The position numbers and the translations under genes are program-made. From the IMG/VR virus record IMGVR_UViG_3300036911_000027, positions 1 to 23,989 of that record: 23,989 nt of DNA; one strand, given 5' to 3'. The DNA is from a virus. A model generated the notes under the pieces. It made no database searches, was not told where the DNA came from, and saw only the letters and a program-made list of their open reading frames with translations. Below are positions 6,306-21,305 of the stretch, one piece after another (the stretch's first letter is position 1; each line of letters begins with the position of its first letter).

Positions 6306-7658
6306 TCAGTCCTTCCAGGGGTCGAATTCGCCTTCCCCGGCCATGACCACGCCGACCGGGCGCAGGGTATGCAGCACCCGGACACTGTCGGCACACGCCG
6401 ACAGGACATCCGGCAGCCGGCGATAGGCCATCGGGCTTTCGTCGAGATCGCCGCCGATCAGCGTGACGCCGCGCTCGCGCAACCAGGAGTCCATCTCCGG
6501 CCGGGCGAAGCGTCGCTTGGCTTCTTTCCTGCCGAACAAGCGCCCGGCACCGTGTACCGTGGAGTAGAGCGCTGCCTTCGATTGCTCGCTCTCGACGCCC
6601 TCAAGGATCACGGCGTCGTCGCCCATGGAGCCACCGACGAAACCACGCTGGCCGGGGAAGGCGGGAGTGGCGCCCTTGCGAACAACCCAGAGATCACGAT
6701 CGGCGTGCCGCTCGCGCCAGGCATAGTTGTGGTGGTTGTGCACGGTATCCGTCACGGTTCCACCAATGATCCGGCGGACACGCTCGCACACCCATTCCCG
6801 CCCGGCGTAGGCGTAGCGCCCGGCAAGCTTCATCGCGGCGAGGTAGGCACGCCCGACGTCGGAGTCCTCGTCCACGATGGCGGGCGGAACGTTCATGCCG
6901 TCCTTGCCTCCCGCCAGCTTCAAGTACTTCGTCGCGGTGGTGTGGCCGAGGCCACGCGAGCCGAAATGGACCCCAATCCACACCAGGCCGCTCTCGTCGC
7001 GCAGCAGATCGACGTAGTGGTTGCCGCCACCGACCGTGCCGAGCTGCGCCGCCGCCTTCGGCCGGTACTCCTCCATCCCGGAGGCCGCCCACGCTTCGGT
7101 ATCGTCCAGCAGCTCGTGCTCGACTCTCTCGCCGTTCGGCCGTCCGATGCCGAATGAGACGACGTGCGCAATGTCGGCCATGATCGCGCCGACCCGATCC
7201 TCGATGGTCGAGAACGGAACGTCGAGCCGTACGGCCATGTTGCCGCAGCCGATGTCGAATCCCACGCCAGAGATGGAAACCTGCCGCTCATAGGCAACGA
7301 CGCCGCCAACGGGCTGCGCATAGCCGAGATGGCCATCAGCACAGATCACGCCGGCCACGACGTTGCCGACCTTCATGCAGTTCCGCATCTGCTCGATGGT
7401 GGCGTAGTCGTGTGCGCCGAGGACGGTAAGCGGGCCATCCTGGTATTGCGGCGCCTGCGGGCGAAGACTGGCGTTCTCCGCTGCCAGTGCAGACTGCTCG
7501 CGGGCATTCTGCTCGACGCGGGCATCGCCGCGGTACAGGCACCACGTCGGCATGCCGCGCGGCTTACCGGGAACGGTGACACGGTCATCCGGGTTCTTCC
7601 CGGCCGCCATCGCCAGTTCCCGGGCGCGCGCCTCAAGTGGGTCAGTCCTGTTTCTCAT
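6306..7658 (-). CDS. rtcB: RtcB-type RNA ligase with N-terminal phage extension
   Basis: A 450-residue RtcB, the Mn/GTP-dependent ligase that joins 2',3'-cyclic phosphate (or 3'-phosphate) and 5'-OH RNA ends. The metal and nucleotide motifs are complete: GVGFDIGCGN (D135, C138), GGGNHYVD (H214), VHFGSRGLGH (H231), VHNHHNYAWRE (H307) and HGAGR, whose H369 is the guanylylated residue. Residues 1-50 are an extra domain (ARELAMAAGKNPDDR and GMPTWCLYR) resembling a small free-standing phage protein. The ATG at 7658 has a GGAAGAGAG site. In a phage, RtcB could repair tRNA or rRNA cut by host anticodon nucleases; this role is inferred. Confidence 0.92.
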   Translation of the reverse strand: MRNRTDPLEARARELAMAAGKNPDDRVTVPGKPRGMPTWCLYRGDARVEQNAREQSALAAENASLRPQAPQYQDGPLTVLGAHDYATIEQMRNCMKVGNVVAGVICADGHLGYAQPVGGVVAYERQVSISGVGFDIGCGNMAVRLDVPFSTIEDRVGAIMADIAHVVSFGIGRPNGERVEHELLDDTEAWAASGMEEYRPKAAAQLGTVGGGNHYVDLLRDESGLVWIGVHFGSRGLGHTTATKYLKLAGGKDGMNVPPAIVDEDSDVGRAYLAAMKLAGRYAYAGREWVCERVRRIIGGTVTDTVHNHHNYAWRERHADRDLWVVRKGATPAFPGQRGFVGGSMGDDAVILEGVESEQSKAALYSTVHGAGRLFGRKEAKRRFARPEMDSWLRERGVTLIGGDLDESPMAYRRLPDVLSACADSVRVLHTLRPVGVVMAGEGEFDPWKD

Positions 7659-8020
7659 GTTCTCTCTTCCCAATTTCGGGTCGCTTCAGGCCGCCGGCCC
7701 TTGGGCCAGCCCTTGCCAATACCTTCATTCGCGACGGAACCGCCAGCATCGAACATCACTGTCATGGCGCGTGGAGGGAGATTGCGTGGCTTGGTCGCAT
7801 CCCAGCGACGACCAACCCGCCATTCCTCTCGCACCCACAGGCGATCCCCAGGCTTGACCCTCTGCCATGGCGACGGCCGTTCAACGATCACGACCGTCGG
7901 CTCGCCAACCCGAACCCGGCGCCTCACCTGCTGAATTGCCAGCCGGCGCGTCTGCGTTTTCCGGCCGGCAGACAGCGCGCGGATCATGGGCGCGCTGAAG
8001 ATGATGGGACGATCGACCAT
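7655..8020 (-). CDS. Shortened ASCH-like phage protein
   Basis: A 121-residue protein whose ATG overlaps the upstream stop (TGATG). The N-terminus RPIIFSAPMIRALSAGRKTQ plus TRR, and the later PGDRLWVREEWRVG, match a phage family with an ASCH/PUA-like RNA-binding fold. Family members usually run past 180 residues and end with a PSIHMPRWASR segment, which is absent here; after DAGG the sequence ends in a short basic tail. The gene is probably truncated. Its 3' end overlaps the RtcB start by four bases, so the RNA-related genes are translationally coupled. Confidence 0.65.
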   Translation of the reverse strand: MVDRPIIFSAPMIRALSAGRKTQTRRLAIQQVRRRVRVGEPTVVIVERPSPWQRVKPGDRLWVREEWRVGRRWDATKPRNLPPRAMTVMFDAGGSVANEGIGKGWPKGRRPEATRNWEERT

Positions 8021-15576: not shown

Positions 15577-15587
15577 GACGATCTCCC

Positions 15588-15593
15588 TATTCT
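15588..15593. repeat. Left direct repeat TATTCT (target-site duplication)
   Basis: TATTCT flanks the left inverted repeat directly. The same hexamer follows the right inverted repeat at 16274-16279. The repeat can be read as 7 bases (CTATTCT) if one C of the end is assigned to the target. Confidence 0.7.
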
Positions 15594-15618
15594 GGGGAAT
15601 TATATACATTACTCCCTC
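15594..15618 (+). repeat. Left terminal inverted repeat of the cassette
   Basis: Pairs with 16249-16273 (23 of 25 identical as inverted copies). Read on the minus strand it is GGGAGTAATGTATATAATTC plus CCC, so it carries a Shine-Dalgarno-like GGGAG and an outward-facing ATG in frame with the next gene. The unit is also partly self-complementary (GGGAGT with ATTCCC). Confidence 0.75.
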
Positions 15619-15624
15619 GCTCCC

Positions 15625-16259
15625 TCATAACGCTGCCCATTGTGGTTTTGGATATGCCAACGCTTCCAAGCCCAACCTTTTAGCCTTTGCACGACCAGAT
15701 TTATTCAATGCTCGCCAATAGAGATGCTTGCCGTCATCCCAATGCGGTTCAATCGTGTGATCCGGCAACCGGATGGCTAATTTCGTTGGGGAACTCGTTC
15801 CCCAACGAGAGTTACAAGATCGACAAGGATGGAAAACTCCGTTAATCATCAGGCCGTCCTGTCGCCGTTCACGCTGCCCCGCATAAGCCCATGAAGCCGC
15901 TTGGTAGATGCCCCGTGGTGCCCATGCGTGGCATCGGCGAACGACACCAACAGGTCCATGGCCTTCCTACGGGCCAGGAAACGCACGGTCGCAGCTATCA
16001 GGCCGGTCAACGATACCGCCGCGTCATCCCGGCGCACCAAACGCGATAATTCCCAGACATCTTCGGACCATCGTGTCGGCGGGATAGAAAAGAAGCACGC
16101 GGCTATCACTTGACCTTGATCTCCGAACAGTCCGCCATCCGCATGCCAAGTCCCAACGCATTGCAAGTTGGCAGGCACACGGCCGCTGTAGTGAAATCGT
16201 TCCACCAGTTCAGACGCTTCGGCCACTAGACCGATTCTGAAATGATTAGAGGGAGTCAT
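15625..16259 (-). pseudogene. Mom-like DNA-modification acyltransferase, frameshifted
   Basis: Mom of phage Mu converts adenine to a carbamoylmethyl form and protects phage DNA; the family has a GNAT fold. The first frame from ATG 16259 has FHYSGRVPANL, WELSRLVRRDD and VSFADATHGHHG (to about residue 117). The next frame continues exactly where the family would: IYQAASWAYAGQRERRQDG, then CNSRWGTSSPTKL and GKHLYW through YPKP, ending at 15625. One extra G in the run of four at 15911-15914 would join the halves as HHGGIYQ and give 211 residues, close to Mu Mom. The start codon lies inside the right inverted repeat. The gene is broken as written, unless read by frameshifting or mis-sequenced. Confidence 0.75.
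15783..15808. repeat. 12-bp inverted repeat inside the Mom-like gene
   Basis: TCGTTGGGGAAC, a TC spacer, then GTTCCCCAACGA. The arms are perfectly complementary. It lies over the codons for RWGTSSP. It includes the GGGGAA/TTCCCC element also present at the cassette ends, and would form a strong hairpin in the transcript. Confidence 0.6.
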
Positions 16260-16273
16260 CTATATAATTCCCC
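16249..16273 (+). repeat. Right terminal inverted repeat of the cassette
   Basis: Inverted copy of 15594-15618. On the minus strand it supplies the ATG ACT CCC that begins the Mom-like gene, preceded by AATTATATAG. The TATATA could act as a -10 box, and the AGGGG of the upstream stop/flank region could be a weak ribosome-binding site. Confidence 0.75.
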
Positions 16274-16653
16274 TATTCTGCGGCCAGCAGCGCGGCCGGC
16301 GTCTCGCGCCGCGCCAGATCGACGACACGCTGCAGGCGCCGCTGCTCTCGCATCGCATCGTGCACGGGGGCCAGCACGAGGCGGCGCTGCCAGTACCGGA
16401 GCGCCCGTAGCGCGAGCCGGACCTCTTCGCTGGCCTCGTAGTGCCGGCCTTCGTAGATCGCGTCGCGGACCCATTGCCGGGTCTCGCGGACCCGGCGCGC
16501 GGCGAGCGACTGGTAGGTGTCGCTCCGCGGAAGCCCCGTGGCCGGCAACTTCGCCGGGTCGAGGTCGCCGGCGAACTCAGGATAAGGCCGCGGGATCACC
16601 ACCAGCGGCGGGGCCGGCTGGGCTTCAAGAGCGGTGCAGAGGCCGGTGAGCAT
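16273..16653 (-). CDS. Unrecognised helical phage protein
   Basis: 126 residues, arginine-rich. The N-terminal part has PPLVVIPRPYPEF and GLPRSDTYQSLAARRVRETR; the rest is helical (EASEEVRLALRALRYWQRRL). No domain was recognised. It starts one base after the previous stop and ends at the TAG that abuts the cassette's right end. It is the second gene of the leftward early operon. Confidence 0.6.
   Translation of the reverse strand: MLTGLCTALEAQPAPPLVVIPRPYPEFAGDLDPAKLPATGLPRSDTYQSLAARRVRETRQWVRDAIYEGRHYEASEEVRLALRALRYWQRRLVLAPVHDAMREQRRLQRVVDLARRETPAALLAAE
16274..16279. repeat. Right direct repeat TATTCT (target-site duplication)
   Basis: Second copy of the hexamer at 15588-15593. It includes the last bases of the upstream gene (complement of GAA TAG), so the insertion occurred at that gene's stop codon without changing its protein. 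Confidence 0.7.
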
Positions 16654-16882: not shown

Positions 16883-16911
16883 ACACTAAGCGACGCCTAG
16901 CGAAACGTCAA
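16883..16911 (-). promoter_or_regulatory. Leftward early promoter (PL-like)
   Basis: On the minus strand TTGACG (16911-16906), a 17-base spacer, and TAGTGT (16888-16883). Transcription would start near 16876 and enter the operon at 16852. Operator 16886-16900 covers the spacer and -10 box, and operator 16911-16925 touches the -35 box, so a bound repressor would block it. Confidence 0.7.
16886..16900. promoter_or_regulatory. Operator 1
   Basis: CTAAGCGACGCCTAG, an imperfect 15-bp palindrome of the type CTAxGC...GCxTAG. It overlaps the -10 box and spacer of the leftward promoter, and is the mirror partner of operator 4. Confidence 0.65.
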
Positions 16912-16925
16912 TAGGCACAGCCTAG
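16911..16925. promoter_or_regulatory. Operator 2
   Basis: ATAGGCACAGCCTAG, the same palindrome type, 25 bases centre-to-centre from operator 1 and touching the leftward -35 box. Confidence 0.6.
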
Positions 16926-16958
16926 CGAGATTGTCCTTTTTGCGTACCGGAGTCGCAC

Positions 16959-16973
16959 CTAGCGTTTGCCTAT
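16959..16973. promoter_or_regulatory. Operator 3
   Basis: CTAGCGTTTGCCTAT, the inverted counterpart of operator 2, ending at the rightward -35 box. 48 bases separate the centres of operators 2 and 3. Confidence 0.6.
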
Positions 16974-17001
16974 TGATATTCCGCTAGGCATCGCTTAGTG
17001 T
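16973..17001 (+). promoter_or_regulatory. Rightward early promoter (PR-like)
   Basis: TTGATA (16973-16978), a 17-base spacer, and TAGTGT (16996-17001), the mirror image of the leftward promoter. The predicted start is around 17008, at the ATG of the next gene (17009), so its message may be leaderless. Operators at 16959-16973 and 16984-16998 flank and cover it. Confidence 0.7.
16984..16998. promoter_or_regulatory. Operator 4
   Basis: CTAGGCATCGCTTAG, inside the rightward spacer and -10 box and 25 bases from operator 3. Together with operator 1 it forms part of a 22-bp inverted repeat (16881-16902 and 16982-17003) with one mismatch. Confidence 0.65.
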
Positions 17002-19895: not shown

Positions 19896-20800
19896 TCGAG
19901 ATTGCCATCACCGGCGTTCCGAACCACATCACGGTTGGGCTCGACCCTGATCTGCAGGAGCTGGTCGAGCGCTTCCTGACGCGCCTCCCAGCGCCAGACC
20001 CGGCGCATGGCGTGGTCACCGTGGCCGATGCTGCTGTCGCGAAGATCGCGGCGGCTGATCTCACCACGCCCGACAAGGTCGCTCCGCCGACGCCACCCGA
20101 CGCACCAGAACAGCACGATGAGATGGCGCCTCCGCCAGCGCCAGTGCCGAAAGTTCCGAACGTCCTCGGGGCCGCGATGCAGGTCGTCGTGCGTCCGGCA
20201 ACCCAGAAGAGCCCCGGACCTCCGGTAAAATGGACTCCCGAGCGTGTCGCACTGGTGGAGCAGAAGTGGGGCGACGGTCTCTGGGAAGACGCCATCCTGC
20301 CGGAGGTCAACAAGCTGCCCGGCCCCCATATCGAAACCTCGAAGGCGGTGTGGGTCGTCATCAAGAAGTGCCACTTCAAGCGGCGCCCGGGCTGTGTGCC
20401 GGATCCGCGGAAGTCGCCCGTCCTGGCGTCGGACCAGAAGGCTGCGATCCCGGAACCACAGCCGAACGCGGCAGCACCAAGGGCCGCCGAACCCCCGCCG
20501 ATCACTTCGGGGACGAAGCCGGTTTCCCCGGCACCTGAGATCACGGCGGCACCTTCCCCGGCGCCGGTTGTGCTGCCGCTTCCGCGGCCGTACGGCCGCA
20601 TCGAGATCGGCTGGAACCAGGCCACAGCGCTGGCGCGGAAGATTGGCCTGCCGCGCTTCAATGGCGACATGGAAGGGCTGAACCAGCATCGCCGGAAGTG
20701 GCGGCTACCCGAGTTCGTGCTGGTCGAGCCGTTTGGACCTGGCTCAAGCCCGAGCGGTCTGGCGCCCGCGAAGACGGCGGAGCCGGACAAAGCGGCATGA
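19892..20800 (+). CDS. Phage protein with Myb/SANT-like central domain
   Basis: 302 residues from the ATG overlapping the helicase stop (ATGA). The central part KWTPERVALVEQKWGDGLWE followed by VWVVIKKCHFKRRPG resembles a Myb/SANT or GcrA-like helical DNA-binding unit. It is bracketed by two long proline/alanine-rich linkers (residues about 60-110 and 185-235). The C-terminus GWNQATALARKIGLPRFNGD, then LNQHRRKWRLPEFV, could be a second small DNA-binding part. Function unknown. It overlaps the methyltransferase remnant by four bases. Confidence 0.6.
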   Translation: MIEIAITGVPNHITVGLDPDLQELVERFLTRLPAPDPAHGVVTVADAAVAKIAAADLTTPDKVAPPTPPDAPEQHDEMAPPPAPVPKVPNVLGAAMQVVVRPATQKSPGPPVKWTPERVALVEQKWGDGLWEDAILPEVNKLPGPHIETSKAVWVVIKKCHFKRRPGCVPDPRKSPVLASDQKAAIPEPQPNAAAPRAAEPPPITSGTKPVSPAPEITAAPSPAPVVLPLPRPYGRIEIGWNQATALARKIGLPRFNGDMEGLNQHRRKWRLPEFVLVEPFGPGSSPSGLAPAKTAEPDKAA

Positions 20801-21297
20801 CATACCGACCGATCTCCGATGAATGGATCCTGGCGCGCCCGCGTCTGCGAGAAGGCGCGAAGCTGTTCGGTGCCTACCCGGGCGGCTATCTCGAACGCGC
20901 CCGCGCGTTGCTCGGGGTCCACATCAACGATCCGGTCCTGCACGGGAACCTCTTTCAGGAGTGGTGCGAGGCGTGGTCGCGAGAATGTCTCCGCGTTCTC
21001 AAACCCGGCGGGCACTTCGTCGCCTTCGGTGGCTCGCGCACCTACCATCGGCTTGCTTGCGCTGTTGAGGACGCGGGCTTCGAGATACGCGATCAAATTC
21101 AGTGGATTTACAAAACTGGATTTCCGAAGTCGCGCGCTTCGCTGAAACCGGCGCATGAGCCGATTGTATTGGCCCGCAAGCCGATGATTGGCACCATCGA
21201 CGCCAACGAATTGAGCGCCGGGTTGCTCATGTCTCTGGAACCGATGCGCCGTTGTTCGCGGCTGCAAAATGAGTGGAAAAGGGAGTCATGTATATAG
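20797..21297 (+). pseudogene. Chimeric, shortened DNA methyltransferase remnant
   Basis: 166 residues from two sources. Residues 1-48 (LARPRLREGAKLFGAYPGGY, LERARALLGVHINDPVLH) match the start of a phage methyltransferase-like protein. Residues 50-130 (FQEWCEAWSRECLRVLKPGG, HFVAFGGSRTYHRL, AGFEIRDQIQWIYKTGFPKS, LKPAHEPIVLARKP) match the core of phage adenine/cytosine-N4 DNA methyltransferases. The catalytic (D/N/S)PP(Y/W) motif, which should precede FQEWC, is absent. The target-recognition part between GFPKS and LKPAHEP is also gone. The stop lies inside the repeat at 21281-21305. The 3' half is lower in GC than its neighbours. Almost certainly inactive. Confidence 0.7.
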
Positions 21298-21305
21298 TTC
21301 CCTAT
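21281..21305 (+). repeat. Third copy of the cassette end
   Basis: GGGAGTCATGTATATAGTTC plus CCTAT. Over the 23 bases shared with the minus-strand reading of 15594-15618 about 20 are identical. It holds the stop of the methyltransferase remnant and the ATG of the next gene. No partner end was found upstream. Confidence 0.6.

Follow-up and report, generated by a model that had tools for sequence, protein, structure and literature searches.

The transposase-free unit at positions 15595-16272 of the window, the 23,989-nucleotide stretch of viral DNA analysed here, is very probably a mobile insertion cassette (MIC) of a phage-borne IS1595 lineage, which would be moved in trans and whose cargo would preferentially consist of DNA-modification genes. 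The IS1595 branch to which it belongs is, as far as its sequences tell, widespread, and carries DNA-modification genes between unrelated phages.

The element in the window and its insertion site

A preliminary description of this DNA had placed 25-bp inverted repeats at 15594-15618 and 16249-16273, and these are present, 92% complementary, where shuffles of the window gave an expectation of 0 matches. The hexamer direct repeats and 680-bp unit of that description gave way to a target-site duplication (TSD) of 8 bp, CTATTCTG, with a left copy at 15587-15594 and a right copy at 16273-16280, so that the element proper covers 678 bp, beginning with GGGA and ending with TCCC (the element and both duplication copies are given without strand). 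The left terminal inverted repeat (TIR) is GGGAATTATATACATTACTCCCT (15595-15617, plus strand) and the right one GGGAATTATATAGATGACTCCCT (16250-16272, minus strand), whose ATG starts the cargo gene. The low internal GC content that had been noted is 0.54 versus 0.70 in the flanks, and CTATTCTG agrees with the position preferences of the family's target duplications.

Removal of the element together with one 8-mer yields, on the minus strand, the junction GCCGCAGAATAGGGAGATCGTCATGGAC, which reads upstream stop TAG, SD AGGGAG and ATG and bears out the natural operon junction that had been claimed. The duplication leaves these signals intact: its right copy includes the TAG (minus strand) that terminates the upstream phage gene (16273-16653, minus strand; weak match to a MerR-type HTH), and the downstream phage gene (15100-15576, minus strand) keeps its SD and start. 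Two further contigs of the window phage, L064 and L184, are 99.98-99.99% identical to the window without gaps and carry the same insertion. A search with the window's flank protein returned only contigs of this same phage, all with the insertion; no exact empty site was found for the window insertion or for that of L029, and the cassette DNA had no match among phage and plasmid records.

Two other features of the window phage were recorded. At 16884-17000, within an AT-richer gap ahead of a small HTH-like gene, lies a 42-nt inverted repeat (83%) in which TAGGC-type motifs recur and which resembles the operators of a phage repressor, and at 6306-7673 the phage encodes an RtcB-type tRNA splicing ligase (phrog_1075, E 3e-73).

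The sole gene of the element belongs to the Mom family (PF25680, E 7e-10; phrog_1384). The statement that the unit holds one Mom-like gene and nothing else is thus right as to content, but a one-base frameshift at CACGGGGC (about 15907-15917) divides it into an N-terminal part (15852-16259, minus strand; PF25680 10-118 of 202; phrog_1384) and a C-terminal part in another frame (15628-15912, minus strand; PF25680 120-202 of 202; phrog_1384). The family domain is therefore matched in two frames, with no intact reading frame. A deficit of one base, or a -1 slip at CACGGGGC, accounts for the split, and such a slip would unite the two parts. The frameshift is identical in all copies seen (window, L064, and L184), and because L064 and L184 share both insertion and frameshift, a base-calling error in a single assembly cannot explain it. 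The gene may be decayed, or may need a -1 shift.

A third copy of the end, which had escaped the preliminary description, lies at 21281-21302 (minus strand) and is solo; no partner end was detected, whether sought by TSD or by sequence. A remnant of an N6/N4 DNA methyltransferase (20797-21297, plus strand) runs into it. A full-length homologue of 374 aa adjoins the same end in L105, and the window methyltransferase is without about 575 bp of this homologue, including the DPFAGSGTTG motif; it is probably inactive. The window phage seems once to have possessed a pair of DNA-modification units, each damaged today, and because both cargo genes are damaged their activity in this phage is doubtful.

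Could the window copy then be a dead relic, a decayed autonomous element with a Mom pseudogene that is neither mobile nor useful? The frameshift, the second unit with its truncated methyltransferase and single end, and the lack of a cognate transposase in the MAG all favour this reading. However, both ends of the Mom cassette match the family consensus and its TSD is perfect, so that the cassette could be moved in trans; the -1 slip would unite both Mom parts; and cargo-only cassettes recur elsewhere at different sites. Overall, we consider a dead relic a serious but somewhat doubtful possibility.

Distribution of the family and target duplications

The search pattern was derived from the window's end and therefore misses divergent branches; with it, at least 119 stretches were found in viral contigs. 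A tighter pattern gave 109 viral-contig stretches, whereas genome contigs of bacteria and archaea, 257 Gb in all, gave 12; 'viral' here follows the IMG/VR classification, with terminase, capsid, and endolysin genes in the flanks as additional support. Among the 12, L135 has the length and insertion of viral contig L052, and L140 has the insertion of L029. The end was present in 2 of 397 genomes of the window's family.

The matches listed comprised, after removal of duplicates, 104 distinct elements with two ends, almost all of them from viral contigs. Of these elements, 51 encode an IS1595-family transposase plus passenger DNA and 53, ranging from 171 to 1483 bp, encode none. Both sets have the end consensus GGGAATTATATACATGACTCCCT of about 23 bp in common and share nothing beyond it. 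Directly outside the ends, an 8-bp repeat (at most one mismatch) was found in 77 of 103 elements (75%), compared with 1.1% in a control with left and right sides swapped, and the duplication was exactly 8 bp in 57 of the 77. These target duplications are 83% AT (0.83) versus 0.44 in nearby flanks.

Every end forms an imperfect palindrome containing TATATA, an SD-like AGGGAG, and an ATG on both strands, and solo copies exist, such as the one at 21281-21302, which would suit regulatory sites (promoter, operator, or SD/start-codon modules) repeated around phage genes. Against this, duplications of 8 bp flank 77 elements, a transposase of the fitting family lies inside half of the elements, the same elements were found at unrelated sites, and no excess was seen among reading frames that run outward from the ATG (16/59 in frame 0, 17/59 in frame 2). 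A regulatory origin of the repeats is consequently very unlikely, and as the main explanation it is refuted by the target duplications, although an extra promoter role of the ends is possible. Fusion of the ends to downstream genes via the outward ATG was also rejected, with no excess over the control frame.

Two members of the family deserve separate mention. The element at L174:3426-3596, 171 bp long with two ends and perfect 8-bp repeats, contains no ORF of 60 aa and is a true MITE of the family. At L072:477-1956, two cargo-only cassettes adjoin each other with one common 8-bp repeat (CTATATTG), as if the second had inserted into the duplication of the first.

The transposase of the autonomous siblings

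A full-length element with a transposase had been proposed as a check on the preliminary reading, and 51 such siblings with the same end consensus came to light. Their transposase is about 306 aa long and belongs to the IS1595 family (PF12762, E 1e-38; PF12760; NF033547, E 3e-56), and all autonomous members hold a further 387-1666 bp beyond its ORF. In a maximum-likelihood tree, 46 sibling transposases, a few of them from genome contigs (L133, L141), formed one clade (100/99, all bootstraps) versus 14 cellular ones; the clade stands apart only relative to this cellular set, which consisted of best hits in one class and the MAG's own transposases. The cellular IS L205 has the outer 13-14 bp of the end, GGGAATTATATACA, in common with the family together with an 8-bp TSD, so that the lineage finds its place next to IS1595 elements of cells, and it may belong to the ISNwi1 subgroup (TIR ggnnatTAT).

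An automatic end search around cellular relatives of the transposase gave mostly no recognisable ends, and a comparison with 50,697 phage records returned distant relatives only, at most 35.5% identical. Neither a cognate transposase (best own match 34% identity) nor further ends were found in the window's MAG, which is 81% complete. The host chromosome was rejected as the source of the transposase, since none of its own IS1595 transposases exceeds 34% identity and no other copy of the end exists in the MAG.

Cargo of the cassettes

The proposal that other cargo should occur between the same ends was borne out by methyltransferases, PAPS-reductase-like proteins, and further genes. A DNA methyltransferase (N6/N4, C5, Dam, MT-A70) or Mom is encoded by 13 of 50 transposase-free elements, the hits having been assigned to these 13 from single scans and the beginnings of translations, with family lists that are counts without names. 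A PAPS-reductase-like protein is encoded by four of the 50 and a PTPS/QueD-like protein by one. Among 129 flanking genes of comparable length on the same contigs, one was a DNA methyltransferase (Fisher P 2e-7 versus 13/50), and DNA-modification cargo is thus about 30 times commoner in the cassettes than in flanking genes. Autonomous members carry, among other passengers, C5 and N6/N4 methyltransferases, Mom, Lar restriction alleviation, and QueC-like and PAPS-reductase-like proteins. Many other cassettes hold small genes of unknown function, so that DNA modification is a bias, not a rule.

Most cassettes are nearly filled by one ORF, and the cargo gene begins at the end's ATG in L024, L030, L131, L179, L068, and L081 as well as in the window. 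Some members measure just 171-340 bp, as short non-coding MITEs with genes inside by chance would, but the single ORF that nearly fills most cassettes and the roughly 30-fold frequency of DNA-modification cargo make that reading exceedingly improbable.

Mom counters host restriction. Orphan phage methyltransferases do so as well (PMC9892861 and references there), and for the remaining cargo we infer the same role.

PAPS-reductase-like genes recur as cargo (L006, L110, L118, L166, L170, L173, L028, and L131), several of them in phrog_424, and a weak DndC match in L173 hints at DNA sulfur modification. TnpB/OrfB-type genes stand alone between IS1595-type ends at L023:2751-3928, L162:2001-3178, and L165:3382-4534 (PF01385 and PF07282 in two members); here one transposon's accessory nuclease is the cargo of another. 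Two recurrent proteins of unknown function, of 186 aa (L005:2244-2801 and L032:6336-6893) and 188 aa (L067:1008-1571 and L072:485-1048), were found at different sites and are candidates for new counter-defence genes.

Mobility and a proposed mechanism

An autonomous element of 1561 bp is present in L052, L145, and L156 at 99.7-99.9% identity, with three different TSDs and no detectable similarity between the flanks. Cargo-only cassettes also recur at different sites (L005 and L032, 80%; L067 and L072, 75%), an indirect pointer that the window element, too, may be mobilised in trans, and the cargo-only L166 matches the cargo part of the autonomous L170 at 77-87%. The methyltransferase cassette of L030 and L194 is absent from the relative L195, whose two flanking genes are about 20 nt apart; this site is syntenic with L194, not base-for-base equivalent. 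The empty site that had been called for therefore exists as a relative without the sibling cassette, but not as an exact empty site of the window insertion. Likewise, movement between phages, as originally suggested, is seen for sibling elements and not for the window copy, which occurs only in contigs of the same phage. On one phage contig (L169) an autonomous element is accompanied by two cassettes, and L045 holds both a methyltransferase cassette and a Mom cassette.

The mechanism put forward in the preliminary description, a cargo element whose transposase is supplied in trans, appears well supported by the other cargo, the transposase-bearing siblings, and the cassette-free relative, as well as by the TSDs, the cargo bias, and the recurrent elements. 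Two ends of about 23 bp (GGGAATTATATACATGACTCCCT) would enclose a cargo gene, often providing its start codon from the inner TIR, and would be recognised by the IS1595-type DDE transposase of an autonomous sibling, resident either in the same phage or in one that co-infects. The cassette would then be inserted into an AT-rich 8-bp target, which would be duplicated, and the cargo, preferentially for DNA modification, would shield the genome of the phage against restriction by the host. Transposition, supply in trans, transfer at co-infection, and selection by restriction are all inferred here from sequence comparisons.

We lean towards the broader view that environmental phages share a dedicated transposon system, in which a clade of IS1595-type transposases that circulates chiefly among phages moves interchangeable anti-restriction cassettes between unrelated phages at co-infection, the cassette pool comprising methyltransferases, Mom, and probably PAPS-reductase-like and 7-deazaguanine genes. 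If true, this shared system would be the transposon counterpart of a gene-cassette pool for counter-defence. Among phages, genes for DNA modification, orphan methyltransferases included, have a patchy distribution, and their movement is mostly attributed to illegitimate recombination. With its 23-bp ends and exchangeable cargo, a transposon of this kind would offer a concrete, testable route that accounts for such patchiness. The end together with the 8-bp TSD may also serve as a search signature for further phage counter-defence genes among cargo of unknown function.

Comparison with known systems

The window element has the IS-type inverted repeats, passenger gene, absence of transposase, and 8-bp TSD (CTATTCTG) of a MIC, and the 51 siblings provide the cognate autonomous IS with the same ends. 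The 8-bp direct repeats are those of the IS1595 family, whose DDE transposase with zinc ribbon is found in the siblings (PF12762, PF12760, NF033547) and not in the window copy, which is therefore a non-autonomous IS1595 derivative. The siblings combine transposase and passengers in one element as transporter IS (tIS) do, and the window copy does not. With 678 bp and a Mom-family gene, the window element is not a MITE, a class that is short and non-coding.

Searches of open-access literature returned no description of an IS1595 branch that is phage-borne and has DNA-modification cargo, which is weak evidence as most subscription journals lie outside that literature. The general kind, a MIC moved in trans by its IS, appears already in what PMC3913671 and PMC3129680 say of such elements, so the earlier remark that no element of this kind had been described holds only for the phage-borne, DNA-modification version. 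The MIC231/IS231A pair of Bacillus cereus is described in PMC3913671, which cites Chen 1999 and De Palmenaer 2004 for MIC231, as mobilisable in trans by the IS231A transposase. As in that account, IS inverted repeats here enclose a passenger gene in the transposase's place; unlike it, our elements belong to another IS family, reside in phage and not bacterial DNA, carry other cargo, and include autonomous members that also have passengers.

IS1595 members with passengers (tIS; Siguier, Gagnevin and Chandler 2009), as cited in PMC3129680 and PMC12888890, resemble our elements in the family transposase (PF12762, PF12760, NF033547), the 8-bp duplication, and the passengers. The present lineage differs from known IS1595 elements in its separate clade on viral contigs, its distinct inner TIR half (ATGACTCCC), its many transposase-free members, its anti-restriction cargo, and the 387-1666 bp of extra DNA in all autonomous members. 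Integron gene cassettes in phages are likewise mobile and include DNA methyltransferases (PMC9892861), but they use attC sites and a tyrosine integrase without target duplication, whereas the elements described here use inverted repeats and a DDE transposase. Finally, the window cargo belongs to the same family as Mom of phage Mu (PF25680, phrog_1384) but, unlike it, is frameshifted and forms the only gene of a transposable cassette.
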